Origin: a virus
Direction: 5' to 3' (one strand)
Virus record (IMG/VR): IMGVR_UViG_3300025087_000044
Span: 35,114 to 99,113 of that record
DNA length: 64,000 nucleotides
Shown here: one piece after another, positions 6,310 through 61,720 of the stretch
Layout: every line of letters begins with the position of its first letter
Numbering within the stretch: the stretch's first letter is position 1
Notes under the pieces: model-generated
Databases searched by the model: none
Told to the model about the DNA's origin: nothing
What the model saw: the letters and a program-made list of their open reading frames with translations, nothing else
Translations under genes and position numbers: made by a program

Positions 6310-6637
6310 ATTCCTAAAAGCATGGCGATATCTTGAAAGTCTTAAATACTTTAATCCGCCCGAGATAGCTGGACTTTTCGGATTCGGCAATTTCGATATA
6401 ATGGTCAGCAGTGAGACGACCCCAAAAGGAACCAATGTTTACGTTGAATTGAACACGGGCAGTTGGAACGAGAAGTATAGTTGCTTTTCTCACGATTACA
6501 GACTAGACGTTTCATGTCCTACATTCGAGGATGCCATAATCGAGCTTGCCAAGAAATGCAAAAAGTTAGGCCGCAAGCTTAATCATTCAGTAAGCGAGAC
6601 GATAAAGTTCAAGAAAATAAAACATCTCCTAAAATGA
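6284..6637 (+). CDS. hypothetical protein
   Basis: 117 residues (MTNKLKKDKFLKAWRYLESL...), with a beta-rich middle (VYVELNTGSW) and a basic C-terminal helix. No domain recognised. It overlaps the next start as ATGA. Confidence 0.55.
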   Translation: MTNKLKKDKFLKAWRYLESLKYFNPPEIAGLFGFGNFDIMVSSETTPKGTNVYVELNTGSWNEKYSCFSHDYRLDVSCPTFEDAIIELAKKCKKLGRKLNHSVSETIKFKKIKHLLK

Positions 6638-6834
6638 GTTACGAATATCAAATGGTTCTCCTCGACGTTAAAGTTGAGGCGATAAACCAGAGGCGCGATA
6701 AGTTACTGAGAGGTGGAATCAGTTACGATAAATTGTGGTTGGATTTTAATCTTGAAAAGCTATATATCGAGGCAGAGCAAATCATACTAAAATTAAAGCA
6801 AATTACCACTTATCCACACAATTTCCAAAAATGA
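6634..6834 (+). CDS. hypothetical helical protein
   Basis: 66 residues, helical and charged, coupled to the gene before it by a 4-bp overlap. Its last codons contain a perfect TTATCCACA box (6810-6818) just before the promoter at 6848. It is the last gene before a 600-bp segment with no long ORF. Confidence 0.5.
   Translation: MSYEYQMVLLDVKVEAINQRRDKLLRGGISYDKLWLDFNLEKLYIEAEQIILKLKQITTYPHNFQK
6810..6818 (+). promoter_or_regulatory. DnaA-box-type 9-mer TTATCCACA
   Basis: Perfect TTATNCACA match inside the end of the 6634 gene, 29 bp before the -35 element at 6848. Confidence 0.4.
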
Positions 6835-6847
6835 CTTAAACAACCCC

Positions 6848-6875
6848 TTTACAAATCTATTCAATCTGCTACAAT
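6848..6875 (+). promoter_or_regulatory. sigma70-type promoter of the 6880-7280 RNA
   Basis: TTTACA 6848-6853, 16-bp spacer, TACAAT 6870-6875, with TGC before the -10 as in the other promoters here. It has the CCCC flank shared with promoters at 12578 and 16164. Transcription would begin near 6880, exactly where the first stem of the structured RNA begins. Confidence 0.6.
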
Positions 6876-6879
6876 TTAA

Positions 6880-7280
6880 TTAGGCAAAAAATAAGCTAAC
6901 CTTACAGAAAATAACTTTCTAGTGCCTAAACAATATAAGCGATGTCAAATCGTTTCGTGTGTTAATCTCATTTAAGATGTGTCTTGCCTTTAAAACGGCA
7001 GTACCAACACGGGTACATTTGACACACATCTTAGCTGAGATTTTTTGTTATTTATATCCTGTTCGGAATAAAAGAGATATAACGGTCACACGCTAACGCT
7101 ACGACCCAAACTGTCCCTCCCGATTCCGAGCAGGATATAGGTAACTATAGTCTTCCCCCAGAGTTGCTAGCTACTCTATAAGCGGACTTAAAAAGGCTTA
7201 TGTCAAGCTAATCCTTGGGCGTGCAGGAACCGCTCTAAATAGCCTGCCTTTATACGAGTTTCACCACAAAAGTCCTTTTA
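6880..7280 (+). ncRNA. large structured non-coding RNA, unknown class
   Basis: About 400 nt with no ORF behind its own promoter. Stems: TTAGGCA 6880-6886 with 6923-6929; a 17-bp helix with one internal loop, 6964-6982 with 7024-7042, holding two apical hairpins (TGCC/GGCA and GTACC/GGTAC); a 17-bp helix 7053-7069 with 7123-7139 (one G-U) closing a branched 53-nt loop; AGAGT/ACTCT near 7160-7177; and GGACTT 7184-7189 with 7270-7275, enclosing AGGCT/AGCCT. A T-run follows the second helix at 7041-7046, so a shorter transcript is possible. It is not tmRNA, RNase P RNA or 6S RNA by eye. Confidence 0.65.
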
Positions 7281-7389
7281 AATCAAATCGCTAATTTCTC
7301 TTATATAAATTGATATAAATATCTATTTAAAAAGAGTAATTATAAATAAAATTTTAACTCGGTAATGGTTGTATGGGGAGTGGGGGTAA

Positions 7390-12472: not shown

Positions 12473-12543
12473 CACTTGGTAGCCAAATGGTAAGGCTATG
12501 GGTTGCAAACCCATGATTGCAGGTTCGATTCCTGCCCAGGTGT
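12473..12543 (+). tRNA. tRNA-Cys (GCA)
   Basis: Complete cloverleaf by eye: acceptor CACTTGG with CCAGGTG, D-arm GCC/GGC, anticodon stem TGGGT/ACCCA with loop TTGCAAA (anticodon GCA), T-arm GCAGG-TTCGATT-CCTGC and discriminator T, usual for tRNA-Cys. CCA is not encoded, so the host must add it. Confidence 0.93.
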
Positions 12544-20867: not shown

Positions 20868-20993
20868 ATGGACGATTACGAAAAAGCAAAAAGACAGCAA
20901 AAAAAAGAAGAGAGCAGTCCTACTGTTATGTTTAAGGATTTATTAACCCAAGAAGAATTGGATATGTTGAGTAAGTTCTTTTCAGAAGAGTAG
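20868..20993 (+). CDS. small acidic helical protein overlapping a tRNA
   Basis: 41 residues (MDDYEKAKRQQKKEESSPTV...DMLSKFFSEE). Its last three codons and stop form the 5' acceptor strand of tRNA-Ile. It may be a real peptide or a by-product of the tRNA sequence. Confidence 0.4.
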   Translation: MDDYEKAKRQQKKEESSPTVMFKDLLTQEELDMLSKFFSEE

Positions 20994-21056
20994 CTCAGTT
21001 GGTAGAGTGTCCGCCTGATACGCGGAGTGTCGCTGGTTCGAGTCCCAGCTCTTCTA
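20984..21056 (+). tRNA. tRNA-Ile (GAT)
   Basis: Acceptor AGAAGAG with CTCTTCT, D-arm GCTC/GAGT region with AGTTGGTAGA loop, anticodon stem TCCGC/GCGGA with loop CTGATAC (anticodon GAT), T-arm CTGG-TTCGAGT-CCAG, discriminator A. No encoded CCA. It overlaps the end of the 20868 gene. Confidence 0.93.
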
Positions 21057-27732: not shown

Positions 27733-27894
27733 ATGAAAACAACAACAGAAGAACAATCTAAAGTAGTTGAAGATAAAATAACGGGACGCTCAACTGCAAC
27801 TGGTGAATTGTTTTTAGAAAGAAGTAAATTGGCTAAAATAATTGTTGAATTGTTTGACAGGATAGAAGAACTTGAGAATAAGTTGCGTCAATAA
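27733..27894 (+). CDS. small helical protein overlapping tRNA-Gly
   Basis: 53 residues (MKTTTEEQSKVVEDKITGRS...), ending in a coiled-coil-like IIVELFDRIEELENKLRQ. Its last codons encode the 5' acceptor strand of tRNA-Gly. Start in GAAATAATATG. Confidence 0.5.
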   Translation: MKTTTEEQSKVVEDKITGRSTATGELFLERSKLAKIIVELFDRIEELENKLRQ

Positions 27895-27956
27895 TTCATG
27901 GGTTAGAATCTGAGATTTCCAATCTCGGTAAAAGGGTTCAAGTCCCTTTTGACGCT
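27885..27956 (+). tRNA. tRNA-Gly (TCC)
   Basis: Acceptor GCGTCAA with TTGACGC (7 pairs), D-arm ATTC/GAAT, anticodon stem TGAGA/TCTCG with loop TTTCCAA (anticodon TCC), T-arm AAGGG-TTCAAGT-CCCTT, discriminator T, no encoded CCA. It begins inside the end of the 27733 gene and lies 39 bp before the hammerhead ribozyme. Confidence 0.9.
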
Positions 27957-47364: not shown

Positions 47365-47417
47365 AAGCACCTAACTCAAGAGTGAAAGCTTAGTTTTCAT
47401 TTTTAAGTGGGGTGCTT
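47365..47417 (+). promoter_or_regulatory. leader hairpin that pairs with the portal ribosome binding region
   Basis: AAGCACC 47365-47371 at the expected transcript start pairs with GGTGCTT 47411-47417, which covers the GGGGTG region before the portal ATG at 47428. An inner stem TGAAA/TTTCA also forms. It may control translation of the first late gene. Confidence 0.5.
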
Positions 47418-47427
47418 TTGCGTATAT

Positions 47428-49614
47428 ATGAATATATTTCAATCCATAAGACAAGGATTATCTAATTTTAGGAGCAAAGATGCTCCCAAGATTAACAATG
47501 TAGATAATTCTTTTGTTAAAAGTGTTGGATATTCAGAAGAAGTTGCTGGAAGTAGTCAGGAAGAGTTATTGAGTTCCATTAAAGGTTGGTCGTATACTTG
47601 TATCTCGGCCATAGCAGACCAGATAGCTTCCATTGATTTGAAGTTGTATAGATTAAAGCCTGACGGCTCGGCTGATGAAGTTGTGGACAGCCCGATTTTA
47701 GATGTTTTGTATAAGGTCAATGATTTCACTACAAGATTTGACCATTTTTGGATAACGCAAGCGTTCCTTGAGGCTGTTGGAGAGGCGTATTGGTATTTGG
47801 ATATTAACAATGGAATTGTTGATAACATTTATTTTTTACAACCAGATAAAGTTGAGCCTATCATTGACAAGACTAGAATAATCGCAGGATATAATTATAG
47901 TGTCAATGGAAGTAAGATTGCCTTGCCGTTGGAACGGGTTGTGTTTTTCAAGCTACCCAACCCAGCTAATCCGTTTAGAGGCTTTGGAACAATGGAGGCT
48001 GCTGCAAAAACCATTGACCTTGACAACTATTCAGAAACGTGGAACAGAAACTTTTTCAAAAACTCTGCCAGACCACATAGTATCTTAAAAGTAAAGAATC
48101 AGAATTTGTCAAAAGAGCAGATGGAAAAGTTAAAATCTTCTATCGCATTATCATATCAAGGGCTTGAGAAGGCGCATGGAACTATGATTCTTTTTGGTGA
48201 TATGGAAGTAACTCCATTTGGAACCGCTCCCAAGGACATGGATTACGTAAGACAGCAAGAATTCGCAAGAGATAAGATTCTCGGTATATTCAGAGTGCCA
48301 AAGGAAGTAGTTGCTCAAACTTCAACGTCTAGTTTTGCGGCTGCAAAGACGGCTCAATATGCTTTTGCCAAATGGACAATCCAGCCTAAAATGGAACGGC
48401 TTATTCAGCAAATGAATGAGTTTTTTATCCCGATGTTTGCTGATTCTGAAGGATTGTATCTTGATTACACTAATCCCATTCCGGAAGATGATAATTACAA
48501 ATTGAGTCTTTACAATTCAGGAATAGTAAACGGGTGGATGACAGTAAACGAAGTTAGGAGTATGGAGAATCTTCCTTCTGTTGATGGTGGAGATGAGTTG
48601 AGAGCTAACGCGCCTGTGTTGCCGTTGGGATACGGATACACCCCTAATAAATCAATTAAAATCAACCAAGAACGATGCAAGGAGATAAAGTCAAGAAACA
48701 AGGAATACTATCAAGTAGAGGGTGAGAAGTTGAAATTGTTAAACAAGATAAAGAACCAGTTGCGGAAAGACATTTCCAATAAGATGAAGAAAAAAGATGC
48801 TGAGATTAGCGTTAAAAAAAAGTCATGGGAAATCGAGACGAAGATGGCTTTTTATCAGATAAAGAGCGTTATTTACGACAAGAATGTTATCAAGGCATAC
48901 AAGCTTCAATCAAAAGTGTTTAAAGAGCAGAAAGTTGAGGTTCTGAGTAAGTTTAAAGAAAATTACCCGCAAGAAAAAGCTCTTGATATAAACAAATTGA
49001 TTGCTTTGTTATTGCTGGACAAAAAGAAAGAGGCTAAGCGGTATAAAGATGCCATGTCTGCCTTGTTCTCAGATATATTCAATTCAAGCGCAACTGCTAC
49101 GTCAGACTTCATGAGAGAGAATCACGATGCAGACGTTGACACGTCAGAAATTACTCCTGAAAAATATATCAAGAAAGCCACGTCTAAAGTTGCCGGCAAG
49201 ATAACTGACACTACTAATAGTTTGATAAGGGGCAGATTGTCTGAAGGAATCGCTAATGGAGAGAGTAACGAAAAACTTGCCAAGAGAATTTCCGATTTAT
49301 TTGACGAAGCAGAGCAGGGCAGGGCTATGTCTATAGCAAGAACCGAGACAGCCAGATACAGCGAGCAAGCCACTCTCGATGTTTATAAAGAATCAGGAGT
49401 TGTTGACGGAAAGGAATGGGTTGTCAACCCTGACGCTTGTGAGTTTTGTCAAGAAATGGATGGAAAAACAGTATCGTTAGAGGAAGGCTTCGCAGGTAAG
49501 GGTGACGACCTTGAAGGTGTTGATGGAGGCGAGATAACAAATAGCTGGGACACGTTAGACACTCCACCGCTTCACCCGCAATGCAGATGCTTAATAGCTC
49601 CAATTTTTAAATAG
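47428..49614 (+). CDS. portal protein fused to MuF-type head morphogenesis domain
   Basis: 728 residues. Residues 1-400 are an HK97-like portal (SYTCISAIADQIASIDLKLY, NPFRGFGTMEAAAKTIDLDN, FGTAPKDMDYVRQQEFARDK, ILGIFRVPKEVVA), forming the dodecameric DNA entry ring. Residues about 600-728 are MuF/SPP1 gp7-like (SIARTETARYSEQATLDVYK, ACEFCQEMDGKTV, DTPPLHPQCRCLIAP). The two are separate genes in most phages, so this is a fusion. The middle (430-580) is helical. Confidence 0.88.
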   Translation: MNIFQSIRQGLSNFRSKDAPKINNVDNSFVKSVGYSEEVAGSSQEELLSSIKGWSYTCISAIADQIASIDLKLYRLKPDGSADEVVDSPILDVLYKVNDFTTRFDHFWITQAFLEAVGEAYWYLDINNGIVDNIYFLQPDKVEPIIDKTRIIAGYNYSVNGSKIALPLERVVFFKLPNPANPFRGFGTMEAAAKTIDLDNYSETWNRNFFKNSARPHSILKVKNQNLSKEQMEKLKSSIALSYQGLEKAHGTMILFGDMEVTPFGTAPKDMDYVRQQEFARDKILGIFRVPKEVVAQTSTSSFAAAKTAQYAFAKWTIQPKMERLIQQMNEFFIPMFADSEGLYLDYTNPIPEDDNYKLSLYNSGIVNGWMTVNEVRSMENLPSVDGGDELRANAPVLPLGYGYTPNKSIKINQERCKEIKSRNKEYYQVEGEKLKLLNKIKNQLRKDISNKMKKKDAEISVKKKSWEIETKMAFYQIKSVIYDKNVIKAYKLQSKVFKEQKVEVLSKFKENYPQEKALDINKLIALLLLDKKKEAKRYKDAMSALFSDIFNSSATATSDFMRENHDADVDTSEITPEKYIKKATSKVAGKITDTTNSLIRGRLSEGIANGESNEKLAKRISDLFDEAEQGRAMSIARTETARYSEQATLDVYKESGVVDGKEWVVNPDACEFCQEMDGKTVSLEEGFAGKGDDLEGVDGGEITNSWDTLDTPPLHPQCRCLIAPIFK

Positions 49615-49633
49615 ATAATAATTGTATAACAGT

Positions 49634-52327
49634 ATGGACAAGAAATACTTAAAAGCGATAACCAAAAGACAGAAGAATGGTTCACTGCTTGCGATTGCGT
49701 CAACTGAGAATAAGGATAGAGTCGGAGATTCTTTGAAAGCTGAAGATTGGGATTTTAAGCATTTTCAAAATAATCCAGTCCTTCAGGCAGGCCATGATTA
49801 CAGGCCTCAGTATACGATTGGAATTGCAGAGAATCTTAAGGTTGAGAACGGACAAGTTACGTTCACGCCAAAGTTTCATAACATCACAAAACTTGCCCAA
49901 GAGATAAGCAAGATGTATGAAGAGGGTTTTTTGACTGCTTGGAGTGTTGGCTTTATTCCCAAGGAATCTAACGTAGAAATCAAGAAGAATCAACTGCTTG
50001 AGGTTTCAGCAGTTGCCGTTCCTGCCAACCCTTATGCTTTGACTTCTTTAAAGAGTTGCAAGAAAGAATTGGAGAGTGTTGATAATGATGTTATAGAAAA
50101 TATAAAAGAGTGGGTAACTAAAGAATATGACGAGTTAACTGAACAGCCAGTCGAAGAGCCAGTTGTTGAAGCACCCGAAGAAGGTGTTGATGAAAAGATT
50201 TGGGATGATTCTGAAACAGAGGTAAGGTATAGAGTCAAAAACCCTGAATTATTCGAGCAAGATTCTTTTAGAACCATTGCCATAAAAGAAGACAAGCCAT
50301 CAATCAATGCTGTTATTGGAAAGCTCATCGGAGAAGAGTCAACAACTATCCAATCGCTTGTTTTCTCTAAAGATGAGGGCCGGACGTTAGAAGATGCGAA
50401 AACTTGGGTTGAAGAACATCCTGACATTAAAGCTATAGGAGAAGAGGACGTTCCATTGCCTGACGAAACGGTCCCTGAAGACATGCCAATGGATAAGCCT
50501 GCCGAAGACGCAGAAGAGTCTGAAAGCGATAAGCCTGAAATGATGAAGATGCAAACGGGAGAAACCAATGGACACACGCACGAGGCTGAGTTCGGTAAAG
50601 AATCTGGAAACGGAAAAACCAATGAAGTTGAAATGCACTATCATGACATTGAAAATTTTATTGTAAAAGAAGCTGGAGAAGTTGCTCACACTCATTCATT
50701 AGATGTTCAGCCTGAAGAGGGGAATGAAGATGAGGAGGTTGTGATAGAAGAGACTGGCTTGAGGGAGTTTAAGTATAAGGAGAGATGGAACAAGTCGTTA
50801 TCAAAATCGTTCGACATTGAAAATGCTCCGTCGATAACAAATAGCCCGATGTTTAAGATTTACACAAAGTATCTTGAGTGCAGCGTGAAGGACGTATTTG
50901 TTAATAGTACATTCGTTCCGTCTCCGATGATTGGAAATTACTTAAATGCTGTAAAGAATATATTGTCTGGATATAACTTGAAAGGCACTAGGGGATATGA
51001 TTTGTGGAGTGGAAATGAAATTCCACCATTATCTGAAGTCATTAAATTGAACTCATCTAGTTCAGACGACTTCCTTGTTCAAGGAACTCAGTATTACGAA
51101 AACGAAGGAAAGGGTTTTGTTGTACAGTATCAGCCAGTCTGGGGAGGAATGAGTGTCGACATATTGACTTCCAGAAATGACAAGGATTTCAATAAGAACA
51201 TAAAGAAGTTAATTGAAGATTACGCAGAGAAGAACAATAAACTAAAAGGAGAAATGTTTGCTCTAAGCGGTGAGTTCTTGGTTAAGACTGATGAACGGTT
51301 TGATGATATTGTGCTAGATGCAGTAGTTAAGAAATCAATCGTGAACACATCTAGTCAGATGGTTAAGAAGGGCATTGAGTTCGCCAGTCGAGGAATGATA
51401 TTCATGGGACCGCCAGGAACAGGGAAGACTAAAACGTGCAGAGCCATAATGAATAGTTCTGATTCTACGTTCATCTGGGTATCAAGCAAGGATTTAAGGG
51501 CTTACGGAGCGGTTGAATGTATAAGTTTGGCTTATTCTTTAGCTAGGAAGATTGCTCCTGCAATCATCTTGTTTGAAGATATTGATACATGGATTAAGGA
51601 TTATGTTATTGATGCGTTGAAGACTGAACTTGACGGGCTTAATTCCACCAAAGCTATCCTTACAATCCTTACGTCAAACAATCCTGAGAACCTGCCTGAT
51701 TCATTGATTGACAGACCAGGAAGATTCCATGAAGTGCTTGAATTCGGACTTCCTAATAAGGCATTGAGGTCAGAGATGATTGTAAAATTCATAGGAGATT
51801 CCATTGATTCAGTTGACACGGATAATCTTAACAAGGTTATTGATGACACAGAAGGAATGTCAGGTGCACATATTAAAGAGTTGGTTGAATACGCCAAAGT
51901 GATATCGGAAGAAGAAGCGGTCAGTCTTGATGTGGCTTTAGTAAAGAGTCTTGACAAGATAAAGAAACAGAGAGAGTTGATAAGCACTATACAGTCAAAG
52001 GCATTTAATCTGAAATTAAAGGAAGGAAGAGTATTGTCAACTAAAAACATTGAAGTAATTAACCAAGCGATAACTGCTCAAAAGAACTCAGTTCAGGTAC
52101 TTGAGAAACTTTTAGAAGAGTCATCAGCAATGAATGACGCTTCCAAAGCTCAAAAACCCTTTAACAAGAACGAGAGTTTAGCTAAAGGTCGGACAGAACC
52201 CCAAAAACGGATGGAGCAGAAAACCATAGGTCAGATGGAGACATCAGACCAAATAGTTTTACGGGTTCTACAAAAAATAGCGGGGCAATCTTGCTACGCT
52301 TTAAACAAGTTGAATAGAAAAATATGA
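49634..52327 (+). CDS. HK97-type prohead protease fused to an AAA+ ATPase
   Basis: 897 residues. Residues 10-135 are the prohead protease: TENKDRVGDSLKAEDWDF, QAGHDYRP (catalytic His about 54), FLTAWSVGFIP (catalytic Ser about 104) and SAVAVPANPYA. Residues 140-360 are acidic and disordered-looking with HTHEAE, MH-YHD and AHTHSL clusters. Residues about 385-560 are an unassigned domain. Then a AAA+ module: GPPGTGKTKT Walker A (about 592), IILFEDID Walker B and LTSNNPENLPDSLIDRPGRF with the arginine finger. The ORF is continuous through all parts, which is unusual for a capsid protease. Confidence 0.88.
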   Translation: MDKKYLKAITKRQKNGSLLAIASTENKDRVGDSLKAEDWDFKHFQNNPVLQAGHDYRPQYTIGIAENLKVENGQVTFTPKFHNITKLAQEISKMYEEGFLTAWSVGFIPKESNVEIKKNQLLEVSAVAVPANPYALTSLKSCKKELESVDNDVIENIKEWVTKEYDELTEQPVEEPVVEAPEEGVDEKIWDDSETEVRYRVKNPELFEQDSFRTIAIKEDKPSINAVIGKLIGEESTTIQSLVFSKDEGRTLEDAKTWVEEHPDIKAIGEEDVPLPDETVPEDMPMDKPAEDAEESESDKPEMMKMQTGETNGHTHEAEFGKESGNGKTNEVEMHYHDIENFIVKEAGEVAHTHSLDVQPEEGNEDEEVVIEETGLREFKYKERWNKSLSKSFDIENAPSITNSPMFKIYTKYLECSVKDVFVNSTFVPSPMIGNYLNAVKNILSGYNLKGTRGYDLWSGNEIPPLSEVIKLNSSSSDDFLVQGTQYYENEGKGFVVQYQPVWGGMSVDILTSRNDKDFNKNIKKLIEDYAEKNNKLKGEMFALSGEFLVKTDERFDDIVLDAVVKKSIVNTSSQMVKKGIEFASRGMIFMGPPGTGKTKTCRAIMNSSDSTFIWVSSKDLRAYGAVECISLAYSLARKIAPAIILFEDIDTWIKDYVIDALKTELDGLNSTKAILTILTSNNPENLPDSLIDRPGRFHEVLEFGLPNKALRSEMIVKFIGDSIDSVDTDNLNKVIDDTEGMSGAHIKELVEYAKVISEEEAVSLDVALVKSLDKIKKQRELISTIQSKAFNLKLKEGRVLSTKNIEVINQAITAQKNSVQVLEKLLEESSAMNDASKAQKPFNKNESLAKGRTEPQKRMEQKTIGQMETSDQIVLRVLQKIAGQSCYALNKLNRKI

Positions 52328-55300
52328 GTAAGAAAATTACAATCAACGGTAAAACCTACATCGAAGATGAGGGAGCCGCTCCTGAAACAACGGAGGAAGA
52401 AGTGAAGGAAGAAGGTGTAAGCGAGGAAGTGATTGACGAAACAGCACAGAAGATTCTCAAATCCTTGGGTATTGATGAGTTGAGAAAGTCAATTGCTGAG
52501 CTCAAACAGGCCACAAGCAAAGATAACGGGATTGACGCTAAGACCGCCTCTCTAATTGACCTTGCAGGCTTGATGAAGAAAGATGTCAATCAGTTGACAG
52601 TACAAGAGAAAATCATCGGATTCTTTCAGGCCATGGTTCAGAACAACCAGACCGTCATGAAAGCTTTGTCCGAGGGTTAGATAGCAGAAGCCCTCATTAA
52701 AATCGGTGAATTGCTGGGAACTCCTTTTTCAAAGGACAATCAGCAGCCAAGCTTTCGCTTAAATGGCGACTGAAGGTTCAACGACTAGGTCTTGAAACTG
52801 CGTATAGCAGAATATAACAGACCCAAGAGTGCCGATTACTAGCTCGTTAACAATTAAACTTGACTAATTCTCATAATTACTTTAAAATTATTGTATAATA
52901 ATTAAATTGTATTTATGAGAAAGATTCTCCAAAAGATAAAAACTGCCAGAGGAATTGGCTATGTAATGGAATGCGTTAATTGTCATAAGCCTTTCAGAAT
53001 AAAAAAATGGGATTATGACAATTTAAGAAAGGGAACTTATTGTTCTAACAGCTGTCGAGGTGAGTATCAACGTGTTTCTCTTGTTGGAAAACTTAATCCT
53101 AATTGGAAGGGTGGAAAGGTTCAGATAAAATGTATGGTTTGCGGAACAAGGGTTATGATTAAAGTTAAAGATGCAAAAAGGGGTGGTAAGTATTGTAGCA
53201 AACGGTGTAAAGACTATGACAACAGTAGAGTTGTTAAAATGAATTACGCAAACAATCCTGGACTAAGAGACAAGACAAAGCACGTTGGCGATAAAAACGG
53301 AAGATGGCTGTGTGGAAAGTCGTTTGAACCTTATACAACCTCTTTTAACGAACATACTAAGAACATTGTTAAAGACAGAGACAATAGAGTCTGTATGATT
53401 TGTGGAGTTAACGAAAAAGACCTAAGAGAGTCTTTAAACGTTCATCACATTGATTATGATAAAAAGAATAGCAACATTAACAATCTCATTTCATTGTGTA
53501 ATGTGTGTCATTCTAAAACAAATTCAAACAGAGAGTATTGGAGAAATTATTTGTCAAGTTTAATTGTTAACTAGCAGTAATGATATAGTCTGAACTGCAT
53601 AGTAATATGCAGATGCAACAAAATTAAAAAAGTTGCGATAACATAATGACTGCTGCCGATGGAGGATATCTTTTCCCTAAACGATTCATTGGGGCATACT
53701 AAATAAGTATGAAAATTGGGTGAACTGCTGGAACGTCCACTAAGTGGATAATCAGCAACCAAGCTAAAGGTTAAAATCTTTAGAAGGCTCAACGACTAGA
53801 GGGTGAAACTTGTTAAAAGAATATAATCCCTCCACGAGTGCCCAACTTCTTGAATTTGTAGCTGATATGTTGTATAATGTAATTATAATAAATAATTAAA
53901 TTATATGCGTAAAGGCTCTAAGATGACATTAGAACAGAGAAAAAGAGTTAGTCTTGCTCATTTTGGACATCCTGCATGGAATAAGGGTAAAAAGATGCCA
54001 GAATGGTGGGGAAGATTGTCTTCAGAAAGAGTATTAGCTGGAATAGGAGGAATGAAGGGAAGACATCACTCAGACAAGACCAAAGAAAAACAGAGAAAAT
54101 CCAATAAGACAAAACTACTTTGGCAAAATCCTGATTATAGAAAGATGATGTCCGAAAAGCACAAATGGCTTACTGGAAAAAATAATCCTGCTTATATTGA
54201 CGGAAGAAAGCCTCTAGTAATGAGAGTAAGAAATTCAGAAAAATATGAGAAATGGATTAAGTCTGTTTTCGAGAGAGATGATTACACTTGTCAAGACTGC
54301 AACGTTAGAGGTGGTAAATTAGAAGCACATCACATCAAAGGTTTTTCTAAGATATTTTCAGAAAATAACTTTAAAACCTTTGAGCAAGTAATGGACTGTG
54401 AAGAAATGTGGAATATGGACAATGGATTAACTCTCTGTAAAAAATGTCATAGCAAGATAAGTACAAGAAGATGATATAGTCTGACCACTAGATATACATA
54501 AAACTAGTGAAGCAAAAGATAAAGAACTTTTGCGATAACATAAATGGATGAGTTTGTTTCCGAGGTAGTTCGCGATTTGTCCAACGAGATGTATATGCGT
54601 AAACAACATTGCGCCCTTGCGTAAGCAAGGATAATCGGGTTAAACGGGGAAACTCCCTAACAAGGACAATCCCGTAGCAAGCATGAGGTTAAAATCTTAT
54701 GACGCTCTAACGACTAGATAGTGAACCTCTTAATTGAGAACATAACCTATCCACGAGTGCCCGACATTAGCTCTTTACAACTTAGATAGTTGAGACTCAA
54801 GAAATTTGATATGTTCTTGAAGACATTTAATAAATGTTTTCTCACCATTTCCCTTTTTGTCTGTTATCACAAGGTTTTCTGGGCGATTGTCATTTCTAAT
54901 GCCGTTTAGATGGTGAACAACATCTTGTTTAGTTAATTGCTTGTTATATTTAATAGAAGCTATTAAACGATGTTCGGGAACGTATCCATTAGAATCTGAT
55001 AAATAATGATTACGCATTTTTACTTTAACATATCCGTCTGCTGTATTAAACTTGCCCCCACGCCACATTGGATTACCTGATAACATCTGTCTTTTAGAGA
55101 TTGTTGCTCCACGTTCAGGAAGTTTATAGTTACAAGATGCGCATCTAAGATTTTTCTTGGGAATTTGTTTATTGCAATCAATGCAAAAATTAACAATCTT
55201 TTTTCTCAACATATTATCTAAGTTTAATTATTATATATATATTGTATATGTATAATCATTATAAGTAAAGTTCAAGTGAAGATATAGTCTGAACGCTACA

Positions 55301-57518
55301 GTAATGTAGTGACATAGAAGATAAAGAACTTCTATTATAACAAAATTGAATGAAGTTACGGTGGTTCCGATGAAGAGGGACATCATGAAGATTCCGACAT
55401 TGACATCTGGCCCGAAAGTAGCTTGGACGGCTGAGAATGCCGCGAAAAGCACAACGACAGCTACGTTCGATGAGGCGACTTTGACCGTCAAAAAGATGGC
55501 CGCCATAAAAATACATTGTGGCACTATACTGAAAAGTATAGTTAAAAATTCGGTAAATTGCTGGAAAACCCTGTTTCAAAACAGGACAATCAGCAGCCAA
55601 GCTTTGGCTTAAATGGCCAATGAAGGTTCAGAGACTAGGTGGTGAAACTATATATATAGAATATATCCACTCACGAAAACCGAATATCTATTTTGAACTT
55701 TGACAATTGACAATTACACTCTCATTATATATAATACAATTATTTATAAACTAATTGTGATATTGTATGAGAGAAAGAATAATCCTTGATAAAAAGACAA
55801 ACAGACTTGGAACGCTAAGTTATTTTGTGAAATGTGTTATGTGCGGAAAAGAGTTCTGGATAACAGAAAGTCAATTCAAAGACGGAAGAGGCCTTTACTG
55901 TTCACAGAAATGTTATCACTCTGACCCATTAGTAATTGATAATTTCAACAAAAGTTTTGCTTCGTTTAAAAAGGGAAAAGCTTCATGGAGTAAAGGGTTG
56001 ACTAAAGAAACTAGTATAATTATAAAACGAATGGCAGAAAAAAGAATTGGTGATAAGCATCCGTTATGGAAAGGAGGAAGAGCCAAAATGACTGGCGGAT
56101 ATATCGGTGTATTGATTCCAGAGCATCCAGATGCCAATGTTAACGGACGAGTTTTAGAACATAGATTGGTAATGGAAAAGAAACTTGGAAGAAGACTTGT
56201 TCATTACGAAGAGGTCCATCATAGAAACGGAATTAAAACTGATAACAGACCAGAAAACTTAGAGCTTGTATTGAAGTACAAACATCAAGGAGAAATTCAA
56301 TGTCCATATTGTCAATGTATGTTTAAAATAAAATAGATAATGATATAGTCCGACCTTACAGGAAACTGTAAGAAGCAGAAGATAAAGAGCTTTTGCGATA
56401 ACAAATTGAATGTACATCTCGGACGAATTGGTAGAAGATTCTGATAGCATCGACATCGTTAAGTTCATTGTTACTTTGTTCTCTGAAGCGATTGGAACCG
56501 AAGAAGACCGTGTTATCACAGCGGGTAACGGAACTACTGAGCCTACCGGCTACAATACTTCCGCCAATCCTGGAACGATAGCATGTTCTGGCAACTTGAG
56601 TTATGCCAACATGGTAGACCTCGAGTACACTTTGCCTGCGAAATATCATCGCAATGCAAAGTTCTTCGCGCACAGGAACAACATTCGAGAACTCCGCAAG
56701 ATGGTGGATTCCAATTCACGTCCTTTGTGGAGCGACCCGATTGCTCCTGGCCAGCCCCCGACATGGCACGGATTAAGTGGTAGTCCCTGTTATGCGTAAT
56801 CATAACAGAAAAGACGGTGAATTGCTGGAAAACCCTGTTTCAAAACAGGGCAATCAGCAGCCAAGCTTTACCAGTAATGGTTTAGAAGGTCCAACGACTA
56901 GGGGATGAGTCCACGTAGTGGATGATAATTTCCCCCAAGAGTGCCGTCCACCTTGAAAAAGGTGATGATATAGTCTGAACACTGACTATAAATAAAATCA
57001 GTGAAGCAAGAAATAAAGAGTTCTTGCGATAACATAATTGACCAAGTCGTTGAAGACAACAATCTGCCTGAGTCAGTTATCGCCTTTGGCGATTTGAAGC
57101 AGGCTTATTGGTTGGGCGACCGCAAGTCTATGACAGTGAAGGTAACTCAGGACACTGAGACTGCATTAACTGGTACATCGTACAAGTGCAGTATAAAGAG
57201 GATGAATTGCTGGGAAGCCCTGAAATGGGTTATCAGCAGCCTAGCTTTGCCAGTAATGGCTTAGAAGGTTCAGAGCATAGAGTCCGAGTCCCTCCGGGAC
57301 GATAATGACTCCACGAGCGTCCTCAATCCATTAGTTTAATGGATTATGATATATGCCGACCACCAGATATGAATAAAACTGGTGAAAAGTCAGATAAAAA
57401 ACTGGCTTGTTAAAAATATTTAGTTGTCCATGACCAAACAGCTGTCCGTGTTGTTTCTCGCATTGCAGGTAATGTAGTTAATCCGTACGCTATCAAGAAA
57501 CTTACAAACATTCCGTAG
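52324..57518 (+). CDS. HK97-fold major capsid protein gene in seven exons
   Basis: Exons: 52324-52677, 53649-53678, 54547-54600, 55349-55506, 56409-56773, 57041-57166, 57427-57518, total 1179 nt = 392 residues plus TAG. Joined, the product has an N-terminal scaffold/delta-like helical domain (1-115), then ALSEG-TAADGGYLFP-DEFVSEVV, the E-loop region, NNLPESVIAFGDLKQAYWLG, DTETA-FHDQTAVRVVSR and IAGNVVNPYAIKKLTNIP, all hallmarks of HK97-type capsids. The start overlaps the protease stop as ATGA. About 77% of the gene is intron. Confidence 0.93.
52678..53648 (+). mobile_element. group I intron 1 (with HNH ORF)
   Basis: P1 pairs exon GAGGGT with GCCCTC at 52690-52695 (U-G at the splice site). 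The core has AATTGCTGG, AATCAGCAGCCAAGC and GAAGGTTCAACGACTA (P3, P4, P7 regions). It ends GATAACATAATG with the terminal G at 53648. An HNH ORF fills the distal part. Confidence 0.9.
52915..53574 (+). CDS. HNH homing endonuclease in intron 1
   Basis: 219 residues. Two zinc-ribbon repeats (ECVNCHKPF...CSNSCRG; CMVCGTRV...CSKRCKD), then an HNH core: RVCMICGVNEKDLRESLNVH, HIDYDKKNSNINNLISLCNV, CHSKTNSNREYW. It is expected to cut intronless capsid alleles near the intron site and so spread the intron. A TATAAT at 52894 precedes the ATG but its -35 is weak. Confidence 0.88.
   Translation: MRKILQKIKTARGIGYVMECVNCHKPFRIKKWDYDNLRKGTYCSNSCRGEYQRVSLVGKLNPNWKGGKVQIKCMVCGTRVMIKVKDAKRGGKYCSKRCKDYDNSRVVKMNYANNPGLRDKTKHVGDKNGRWLCGKSFEPYTTSFNEHTKNIVKDRDNRVCMICGVNEKDLRESLNVHHIDYDKKNSNINNLISLCNVCHSKTNSNREYWRNYLSSLIVN
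53850..53878 (+). promoter_or_regulatory. promoter of the intron 2 HNH gene
   Basis: TTGAAT 53850-53855, 17-bp spacer, TATAAT 53873-53878, 27 bp before the ATG at 53905 and inside the intron. Confidence 0.6.
53905..54474 (+). CDS. HNH homing endonuclease in intron 2
   Basis: 189 residues. A basic NUMOD3-like N-terminus (SLAHFGHPAWNKGKKMPEWW, MKGRHHSDKTKEKQRKSNKT), then an HNH core: DYTCQDCNVRGGKLEAHHIK and MDNGLTLCKKCHSKIS, with two CxxC pairs. Part of intron 2; a related remnant lies at 31511. Confidence 0.88.
   Translation: MRKGSKMTLEQRKRVSLAHFGHPAWNKGKKMPEWWGRLSSERVLAGIGGMKGRHHSDKTKEKQRKSNKTKLLWQNPDYRKMMSEKHKWLTGKNNPAYIDGRKPLVMRVRNSEKYEKWIKSVFERDDYTCQDCNVRGGKLEAHHIKGFSKIFSENNFKTFEQVMDCEEMWNMDNGLTLCKKCHSKISTRR
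54775..55212 (-). CDS. HNH homing endonuclease, antisense in intron 3
   Basis: 145 residues and the only convincing minus-strand gene of the window. FCIDCNKQIPKKNLRCASCN is an N-terminal zinc ribbon. GYVPEHRLIASIKYNKQLTK, DVVHHLNGIRNDNRPENLVI is the HNH core with HH and N. Its end overlaps intron core sequence, so its own mRNA would be antisense to the spliced message. Confidence 0.85.
   Translation of the reverse strand: MLRKKIVNFCIDCNKQIPKKNLRCASCNYKLPERGATISKRQMLSGNPMWRGGKFNTADGYVKVKMRNHYLSDSNGYVPEHRLIASIKYNKQLTKQDVVHHLNGIRNDNRPENLVITDKKGNGEKTFIKCLQEHIKFLESQLSKL
55241..55269 (-). promoter_or_regulatory. minus-strand promoter of the intron 3 HNH gene
   Basis: Read on the minus strand: TTTACT (55269-55264), 17-bp spacer, TACAAT (55246-55241), about 29 bp before its ATG at 55212. 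Confidence 0.5.
55707..55735 (+). promoter_or_regulatory. perfect consensus sigma70 promoter of the intron 4 HNH gene
   Basis: TTGACA 55707-55712, 17-bp spacer, TATAAT 55730-55735, an exact match to the consensus in both elements and spacing, 31 bp before the ATG at 55767 and inside the intron. Confidence 0.75.
55767..56336 (+). CDS. HNH homing endonuclease in intron 4
   Basis: 189 residues. A CVMCGKEFW...YCSQKCYH zinc ribbon at the N-terminus, a basic linker (FKKGKASWSKGLTKETSIII), then LEHRLVMEKKLGRRLVHYEE, VHHRNGIKTDNRPENLELVL (HNH core) and a final CPYCQCMFK zinc knuckle. Confidence 0.88.
   Translation: MRERIILDKKTNRLGTLSYFVKCVMCGKEFWITESQFKDGRGLYCSQKCYHSDPLVIDNFNKSFASFKKGKASWSKGLTKETSIIIKRMAEKRIGDKHPLWKGGRAKMTGGYIGVLIPEHPDANVNGRVLEHRLVMEKKLGRRLVHYEEVHHRNGIKTDNRPENLELVLKYKHQGEIQCPYCQCMFKIK
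56774..57040 (+). mobile_element. group I intron 5 (no ORF)
   Basis: 267 nt. P1 pairs exon GGAT with GTCC at 56783-56786. P2 is the hairpin CTGTTATG/CATAACAG. Core AATTGCTGGAAAACCCTG to CAGCAGCCAAGC is near identical to intron 4. Ends CGATAACATAATTG with G at 57040. Confidence 0.85.
57167..57426 (+). mobile_element. group I intron 6 (no ORF)
   Basis: 260 nt. P1 pairs exon ACTGCAT with GTGCAGT at 57186-57192, seven pairs with U-G at the splice site. Core GAATTGCTGGGAAGCCC, ATCAGCAGCCTAGC, GAAGGTTCAGAGCATA. Ends TATTTAGTTG with G at 57426. Its P7 region departs from the others. Confidence 0.83.
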
Positions 57519-61078: not shown

Positions 61079-61720
61079 ATGCAGAGTATAAATTGGGAAG
61101 ATAAAACAGTTGGAAGGTTGAGGGTAGTAAAACGAGTAGAGTCTGATAAGCGAGGTCAATCTCGTTGGTTGTGTCGTTGTTTATGTGGAAATAAAAAGAT
61201 AATTTATGGATATAATTTACACAATGAACACACTAAAAGCTGTGGTTGTATAACCAAGGAAAAGGCAATAATGTGGGCAAAAGAAAGATTTGTAACTCAC
61301 GGAAGCACAGGAACTAATCTGTATAAAGTATGGTTGGGGATGAGATGCAGATGTTATCAAAAAACAGCTTCAGGATATGAAAGATATGGCGGACGAGGAA
61401 TAGAAATAAGTGATAGTTGGCAGATTTTTGATAATTTTAAAAAAGATATGGAAGCTGGATTTTTTAAGGGATTAACTTTGGATAGGATAAATAATGATGG
61501 CAATTATTGTAAAGAAAATTGTCGATGGGCTACTCCTAAAGAACAAGCAAATAATAGAAGTAATAATCGTAGATTGATTTACGATGGTAAAAGTTTAACG
61601 ATTAGCCAATGGGCGAAAGAATTAGACATGGCGGTTACTACCCTATGGAAAAGATTTAAAAAAGGATTACCGGTTAGTCTTGTTTTGAGTAAGGAAAAGC
61701 ATTTGAATCAATACGCTTAA
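61079..61720 (+). CDS. AP2/HNH-type homing endonuclease, free-standing
   Basis: 213 residues. SRWLCRCLCGNKKIIYGYNL then HTKSCGC is the N-terminal zinc module, LTLDRINNDGNYCKENCRWA and TPKEQANNRSNN the HNH-like core, and YDGKSLTISQWAKELDMAVT, TLWKRFKKGLP an AP2-like DNA-binding end. It sits between two LamG-like genes and begins one base after the previous stop. Confidence 0.8.
   Translation: MQSINWEDKTVGRLRVVKRVESDKRGQSRWLCRCLCGNKKIIYGYNLHNEHTKSCGCITKEKAIMWAKERFVTHGSTGTNLYKVWLGMRCRCYQKTASGYERYGGRGIEISDSWQIFDNFKKDMEAGFFKGLTLDRINNDGNYCKENCRWATPKEQANNRSNNRRLIYDGKSLTISQWAKELDMAVTTLWKRFKKGLPVSLVLSKEKHLNQYA

Follow-up and report, generated by a model that had tools for sequence, protein, structure and literature searches.

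Introduction

Group I introns of phages, in the literature surveyed, mostly number one to three per gene. One of the closest described systems is the crAss-like Zeta-group phage OLRF01000054, in which the gene for the major capsid protein (MCP) lies in five fragments (PMC7886860; this and the later comparisons draw on excerpts of the papers cited). Here we describe a major capsid gene at positions 52324–57518 of a 64,000-nt stretch (hereafter the window) of a 99,113-base metagenomic virus record, IMGVR_UViG_3300025087_000044, in which seven exons are separated by six introns that, judged from sequence, form one group I family. A split phage capsid gene is of a kind already known: the MCP gene of OLRF01000054 is likewise that of a metagenomic phage, broken by group I intron-like inserts. 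The two differ in that three of its four intervening segments are intron-like, whereas here seven exons and six inserts are mapped to the base; moreover, Zeta-group genomes are said to contain as many as 14 introns plus 3 inteins (PMC7886860), while the present family occurs, within the window, in the capsid gene only. No crAss-like name was found among the 30 records listed of 379, and no direct comparison with crAss-like phages was made.

Mycobacteriophage LittleE also has an intron, most likely group I, in the stretch of its capsid gene encoding DLDRNNGTGGYAVP, near the sites at residues 118–128 here, and its splicing was demonstrated by reverse transcription PCR and protein sequencing (PMC3706429). 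LittleE has a single intron, the endonuclease of which is called HNH and elsewhere LAGLIDADG-like (PMC3706429). Polymerase and terminase genes of the Bastillevirinae (Herelleviridae) contain up to three introns, with splicing shown (PMC11878797). These share with the window an IA-like character, nuclease open reading frames (ORFs) in most introns, small exons and the presence of several introns per gene, but they number at most three per gene in that excerpt and lie in genes other than capsid (PMC11878797). Jug phages have a mean of 18.5 introns per genome and split terminase genes (PMC12363816). A parallel in eukaryotic viruses is provided by mirusvirus capsid genes, which have variable spliceosomal introns, some introns of this type containing endonucleases (PMC12768974). 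The mitochondrial cox1 gene of Agaricus bisporus, 29.9 kb long, holds 18 group I introns and one group II intron; it too is a single essential gene acting as a reservoir of mobile introns, patchy through lateral transfer and with eroded endonuclease genes, although its setting is a fungal mitochondrion (PMC2987802).

A first-pass annotation of the window, made from the sequence alone, held that few genes have this many group I introns so close together. The published five-fragment capsid gene and the 18 introns of fungal cox1 temper that view, although our searches of open-access papers yielded no phage gene with six group I introns. The number six, the restriction to a single gene (in the sequence examined) and the spare exon described below were likewise not found in those searches.

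Results

Anatomy of the capsid gene

The region 52324–57518 is one HK97-type major capsid gene of seven exons and six group I introns (Table 1). Introns account for 4013 of its 5195 nt (77.2%, with intron 6 ending at 57423), in line with the earlier estimate of about 77%. The spliced product is most likely 1182 nt long, encoding 393 amino acids and a stop, and is full length without internal stops. The joined protein matched PF05065 (Phage_capsid) over amino acids 123–389, the C-terminal part, continuously over the joins (E = 4e-57), as well as phrog_10 (E = 4e-72) and the solved capsids PDB 6tba/6tb9 (E = 2.5e-23), which bears out the HK97-type assignment. By itself, the open frame of exon 1 had no PHROG match, and that of exon 5 matched the middle of phrog_10.

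The joins were assessed with a profile of 22 uninterrupted homologues, the window sequence not among them, against which we scored all in-frame choices within 60 nt that have T before the intron and G as its last base (52, 65, 132, 98, 166 and 134 candidates for introns 1 to 6). The accepted join was the top scorer at all six junctions, the joined protein scoring 586.5 bits, and the alignment with uninterrupted capsids runs across every join. For introns 1–5 these were the joins of the first-pass annotation; the 3' end of intron 6 was moved from 57426 to 57423 because the latter gives a better protein score (586.5 versus 580.8 bits, a gain of 5.7), avoids a one-residue gap that would be the sole junction gap in the alignment with the relatives L009 and L010, and permits a 4-bp P10 helix (UUGU/ACAA) in place of 1 bp. 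Intron 6 thus most likely ends at 57423, so that the lengths first given for exons 1–6 stand and exon 7, put at 92 nt, is more likely 95 nt. The earlier figure of 393 codons holds as 393 amino acids; its 1179 nt had included the stop, and the total is now 1182 nt.

Table 1. Features of the capsid gene, of its relatives and of the window; positions are those of the window unless preceded by a contig name.
Feature	Position	Strand	Length	Details
Exon 1	52324..52677	+	354 nt	capsid amino acids 1–118
Exon 2	53649..53678	+	30 nt	TAADGGYLFP
Exon 3	54547..54600	+	54 nt	
Exon 4	55349..55506	+	158 nt	
Exon 5	56409..56773	+	365 nt	
Exon 6	57041..57166	+	126 nt	
Exon 7	57424..57518	+	95 nt	most likely extent; includes stop; 3 nt longer than first predicted
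Intron 1	52678..53648	+	971 nt	site amino acid 118; P1 GAGGGU/GCCCUC; P10 CUGCUG/UAGCAG; RF00028 48.0 bits
Intron 2	53679..54546	+	868 nt	site amino acid 128; P1 CCCU/GGGG; P10 8 bp; RF00028 47.8 bits
Intron 3	54601..55348	+	748 nt	site amino acid 146; P1 GCGU/GCGC; P10 AAUG/CAUU; RF00028 23.5 bits
Intron 4	55507..56408	+	902 nt	codon 199 after base 2; P1 GCCAU/GUGGC; P10 6 bp; RF00028 59.4 bits
Intron 5	56774..57040	+	267 nt	codon 321 after base 1; P1 GGAU/GUCC; P10 ACCA/UGGU; RF00028 78.9 bits
Intron 6	57167..57423	+	257 nt	most likely 3' end; codon 363 after base 1; P1 ACUGCAU/GUGCAGU; P10 UUGU/ACAA; RF00028 30.3 bits
HNH ORF of intron 1	52915..53574	+	219 aa	PF01844, phrog_1271
HNH ORF of intron 2	53905..54474	+	189 aa	PF13391
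HNH ORF of intron 3	54775..55212	-	145 aa	antisense to gene; PF13392, phrog_20891
HNH ORF of intron 4	55767..56336	+	189 aa	PF13392, phrog_20891
Intron with spare exon	L009:8701-9748			at site of window intron 6
Intron with spare exon	L035: from 5994			at site of window intron 6
Intron with spare exon	L052: from 1575			at site of window intron 6
Putative C–A 5' site, L041 intron 2	L041:4476-5176			
Putative C–A 5' site, L039 intron 1	L039:4075-4974			
Putative C–A 5' site, L042 intron 2	L042:5085-5996			
Putative C–A 5' site, L103 second intron				
tRNA gene (Rfam)	12473-12543			
tRNA gene (Rfam)	20984-21056			
tRNA gene (Rfam)	27885-27956			

The introns as group I ribozymes

The Rfam group I covariance model RF00028 matched all six introns, introns 5 and 4 above its gathering score of 50 bits. 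A P1 helix with a U–G pair at the 5' splice site and a G as the last intron base, both anticipated by the first-pass annotation, were found in six of six introns, as was a P10 of 4–8 bp. Models trained on 23 relatives' introns and on nothing from the window agreed: they found exactly six 5' halves (E 1e-15 to 1e-37) and six 3' halves (E 3e-6 to 8e-16), in order and all in the capsid gene, and no further match at E <= 1 over the 64 kb, which excludes chance as their source. Models built without L009, L022, L035 and L036 likewise recovered the introns of these four loci.

Compensatory changes were sought in an alignment of 29 introns, which omits the second of L035, the third of L043 and those of L045, L047, L052, L103 and L104. 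P7 is paired at all five positions in 29 of 29, as GACUA/UAGUC in 25 and, through a double compensatory change, as GCAUA/UAUGC in four, intron 6 of the window among them. Pairing exceeded that of shuffled alignments in P3 (97% versus 69%) and P4 (95% versus 80%), and in P9.2 (100% versus 69%) and P9 (100% versus 66%) among the 15–17 introns that are gap-free there. An extra stem between P7 and P3' is paired in 99% of cells across the 29 introns, against 56% when shuffled. We take such a stem after P7 (P7.1/P7.2) to indicate subgroup IA of phage introns, a label that does not distinguish IA1, IA2 and IA3.

The first in-frame stops lie at positions 1, 22, 22, 104, 24 and 96 of introns 1–6, so that an unspliced message would give only a truncated capsid.

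Beyond the window the record was searched with Rfam only. The whole-record search placed one weak RF00028 match beyond the capsid gene, at window 49597–49745 (14.1 bits, E 0.02), within the neighbouring protease-AAA+ gene and missed by the intron-family models; the same search gave matches in 8 of 14 control genomes, and this one is probably due to chance.

Intron endonuclease reading frames

Four of the six introns encode an HNH domain, that of intron 3 on the opposite strand. Neither this orientation nor the common family of the six introns figured in the first-pass annotation. An endonuclease frame on the bottom strand of a capsid intron is known from LittleE (PMC3706429, in excerpt). Over the window and its relatives, 22 of 24 intron ORFs matched endonuclease families (18 of the 20 from relatives), the shortened ORFs of L035 intron 1 (115 aa) and L041 intron 2 (85 aa) giving no such match; the best match of the L041 intron 4 ORF was an endonuclease VII family. 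The ORF of intron 2 shares 57–66% identity with its same-site counterparts in L009, L037 and L043. At codon 199 the ORFs of the window, L037, L038 and L041 are 63–74% identical among the four, but that of L041 (5231–5999) is antisense and the other three are sense, indicating that the ORF was inverted within an intron site. A further HNH endonuclease ORF (phrog_374) lies at 61079–61720 of the window, outside all matches of the intron-family models.

Intron sites in related capsid genes

Relatives were gathered by scanning viral contigs, using either the capsid or the endonuclease of intron 2 as query, and by scanning genomes. At least one intron match was present in 14 of the 38 contigs from one of the capsid scans and none in the other 24, some of which contain a partial gene only (for example L040 and L048). 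Together, and with repeats removed, the window and its relatives provide 16 intron-bearing capsid genes, in which 39 introns of one family occupy 15 sites, located in window residues at 118, 124+1, 128, 129, 146, 172+2, 177+2, 180+2, 198+2, 202+1, 263, 320+1, 362+1, 366 and 369+2. The most frequently occupied are 128 (nine genes), 198+2 (six) and 362+1 (five). Of the window's own sites, 146 is occupied in the window only; the site of intron 1 (118) is shared with L047, that of intron 2 (128) with eight relatives, that of intron 4 (198+2, codon 199) with L037, L038, L041, L103 and L043, that of intron 5 (320+1, codon 321) with L041, and that of intron 6 (362+1, codon 363) with L009, L036, L035 and L052. 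The window has the most introns, followed by L041 and L042 with five each and by L043 with three before the contig ends. No family match was found outside capsid genes in the flanks of the relatives (limits of E 0.5 in one scan and 0.01 in the others). Residues at the sites are more conserved (3.56 versus 3.24 bits; none of 5000 random sets was as high), a comparison in which near sites are not independent.

For these counts L039 intron 1 and L041 intron 2 (180+2 and 181+2, within a T run) were treated as one site, reducing 16 sites from the script to 15. L025, L051, L053, L054, L055, L091, L093, L097 and L098 were dropped as the same contigs, L044 and L046 as near-identical to L042 (99.9%) and L036 (100%) respectively. 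By eye, relying on sequence, protein alignment and pairing, we set single junctions in L009, L039 and L042 and two junctions in L103, as well as the third intron of L043, the introns of L045, L047 and L052, and, where the profile script was unclear, L041 introns 2–4 and L042/L044 intron 2. These assignments were checked for an open frame except in L045, L047, L052, L103 and L104. The genome scan gave two matches, in a Ca. Magasanikbacteria and a Pacearchaeota metagenome-assembled genome, both of which may be binned phage contigs.

Kinship of introns at the same site

A tree was made from ribozyme cores without the guide columns, and the labels of site and gene upon it were compared with 300 shufflings. 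Site labels cluster (17 changes; minimum 14, shuffled mean 21.8, none of 300 as low), while gene labels do not (21 changes; shuffled mean 20.4, 247 of 300 as low). The ORFs follow the same pattern. Among 17 intron ORFs with a same-site partner, 15 had their best match at that site, the remaining two matching ORFs of neighbouring sites (181 to 177 and 362 to 366). In no case of 24 did the best match lie in the same gene, one ORF having no match at all. Kinship by site and never by gene is the pattern expected if introns home from one phage to another at fixed sites. At codon 199, L037 and L038 have ribozymes that group together with full support and separately from those of the window and L041. 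There are thus two kinds of ribozyme and one group of ORFs at a single site, and the two parts have apparently been exchanged.

Unusual splice sites in relatives

Four introns of relatives seem to depart from the U–G rule, in that an intact protein needs C, not U, before the intron: those of L042 and L103 at site 172+2 and of L041 and L039 at site 180+2. In each case an A in the guide faces that C. These sites were found by eye, a script that demands G in the guide finding no P1 there. Replacement of U–G by C–A at a 5' splice site has been described before. In L041 intron 4 (6374–7343), the join that fits the protein would end the intron in A, not G, with an 8-bp P10. Both the C–A sites and the A-ending intron are putative, being read from protein fit and pairing.

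A spare exon in three relatives

L009, L035 and L052 have, at the position of window intron 6, an intron of unusual design. Its guide is separated from the upstream splice site by some 100 nt, with the pairing ACUGCGU/GCGUAGU in all three, and the P1 loop so formed is an in-frame copy of the last 30–31 capsid codons with a stop. Downstream of the intron, L009 and L052 have a further copy; the L035 contig breaks off at that point. Between the two copies, 26 of 31 residues are identical in L009 and 27 of 31 in L052, yet only 71–72% of bases. Nonsynonymous divergence (dN) is 0.14 and 0.16, synonymous divergence (dS) not computable and 2.0, near or past saturation. Since residues are kept better than bases, both copies seem to be under selection as protein, although 31 codons are few. 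In L009 and L052, unspliced and spliced RNA alike would then yield a whole capsid, the two differing at the C terminus.

Similar C-terminal duplications accompany mobile endonuclease ORFs in atp6 and other genes of Glomus and Allomyces, which, like L009, L035 and L052, combine an endonuclease element with a diverged duplicate of the 3' end of the gene (PMC3630166). They differ in that the phage copy lies in the P1 loop, with the splice pairings kept and both ends usable, whereas the native end of Glomus atp6/cox2 is unexpressed (PMC3630166). A comparable splicing choice was not found in the excerpt of that account of fungal mitochondrial duplications (PMC3630166).

Gene neighbourhood

Upstream of the capsid gene, window 49622–52327 encodes a 901-aa protein with head-maturation-protease-like and AAA+ ATPase domains (phrog_80, PF00004). 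The same fusion of protease and AAA+ parts is present in L009 (729 aa, by eye), and the L010 counterpart (316 aa), likewise judged by eye, is without the AAA+ part. Window 47407–49614 encodes a 735-aa protein with portal and head-morphogenesis matches. Rfam also identified three tRNA genes (Table 1).

Discussion

The anatomy of the gene, the continuity of its protein over the joins, a shared family with compensatory changes and the kinship of introns by site make it very probable that the capsid gene contains six self-splicing introns of one family that arrived and persist by homing. Splicing in the cell, endonuclease activity and homing we infer from sequence, and the course of events may be pictured as follows. 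In an uncultivated, tailed phage, the primary late transcript would fold into six ribozymes, each of which would use free guanosine, cut after the U of its U–G pair and join the exons, giving a messenger RNA for the 393-aa capsid protein; on unspliced RNA, translation would be ended by in-frame stops 1–104 nt into each intron. The intron-encoded endonucleases would cut intron-free capsid alleles of related co-infecting phages, and repair would then copy the intron into the cut site. Occasionally a new site within the capsid gene might be founded, and the endonuclease ORF might undergo exchange, inversion or loss without the ribozyme being affected. Besides homing at fixed sites, there would be rare founding events at near sites.

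Several observations tell against this interpretation. Introns 1, 2, 6 and 3 fall under the RF00028 gathering score (E 3e-10 to 0.007 in a 5.3-kb search), and among introns of relatives at six loci 12 of 18 matched Rfam at E <= 1, the six without a match being two each in L009 and L036, one in L022 and the third of L037. P5 and P8 hardly exceed shuffled pairing in the same 29-intron alignment (51% paired versus 43% shuffled, and 50% versus 45%), and only 6 of 26 inner branches of the ribozyme tree are well supported. Intron 3 is divergent, with a long branch on that tree, and its P1 beside the splice site comprises 4 bp plus 2; the script favoured another P1, of 5 bp and eight bases further on, which leaves a P10 of 2 bp. 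For intron 5, an in-frame end 6 nt later would give a P10 of 5 bp rather than 4, at a cost of more than 8 bits in protein score. Introns 5 and 6 are without an ORF, so their own mobility needs help or is lost. Finally, six serial splicing steps seem costly in a highly expressed late gene.

It is unlikely that the introns are more than parasites, whether by gating capsid synthesis, which would have to await six splicings, or through alternative splicing that makes variant capsids. Exon skipping is reported, to go by a cited title, from a Twort gene with three introns. Here exons 2 and 3 are multiples of three between phase-0 introns, so that skipping either keeps the frame, and splicing would exchange two C termini in L009 and L052; skipping by group I introns is also reported for the terminase of phage SIOphi (PMC11878797, in excerpt). 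The profile score nonetheless falls from 586.5 to 538.6 bits without exon 2 (a cost of 48), to 532.9 without exon 3 (a cost of 54) and to 501.9 without both, and exon 2 contains the motif DGGYL, invariant in three aligned sequences. Exon skipping as a normal product is disfavoured by this loss, and with 24 of 38 related contigs lacking an intron match, no regulation across the clade depends on introns.

That the introns multiplied inside the gene by reverse splicing into capsid mRNA, not by endonuclease homing, we regard as quite improbable. One family accounts for all six, among the loci examined it was seen in capsid genes only, and related ORFs occur at neighbouring sites (128/129/172, 177/181/202 and 362/366), as reverse splicing would have it. 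Against it stand the six differing P1 target sequences, the absence of clustering by gene and the lack of any ORF with its best match in its own gene. The same-site kinship across phages weighs against reverse splicing as the main route and leaves room for rare founding events. There is very little to commend the view that the split gene is degenerate or a product of faulty assembly, with another capsid gene serving the phage: the record is metagenomic, without a completeness estimate and scanned beyond the window with Rfam only, but the spliced protein is full length and stop-free, the intron sites recur in other contigs, and L009 has the same gene order of portal, protease and capsid (by eye). 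Inteins or group II introns are rejected as scarcely conceivable, since the early in-frame stops make translation through any insert impossible and every insert has a group I core in which P3 and P7 covary, is preceded by U and ends in G; the group II models among the Rfam families scanned gave no match.

We put forward, as a tentative proposal that falls somewhat short of probable, that the capsid gene is a reservoir of one family that goes on founding new sites within it, and that, in some members of the clade, a two-way switch of the C terminus has arisen from the intron at the intron 6 site, its P1 loop holding a selected spare of the last exon, so that splicing is dispensable or chooses the form of the capsid. 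The spare exon suggests how a host gene might tolerate a poorly splicing intron.

Gene callers split such capsid genes, and virus surveys based on the capsid may in consequence miss these phages. Within one essential gene of 393 codons, 15 sites are seen both occupied and empty over 16 intron-bearing genes and their intron-free relatives, and endonuclease genes are found intact, inverted, shortened or absent, with signs of exchange between ribozyme and endonuclease. Because these states coexist in one gene, the founding of sites, the loss of introns and the joint travel of ribozyme and endonuclease can be tested from sequence, and the capsid gene offers a natural laboratory for the spread of self-splicing elements.

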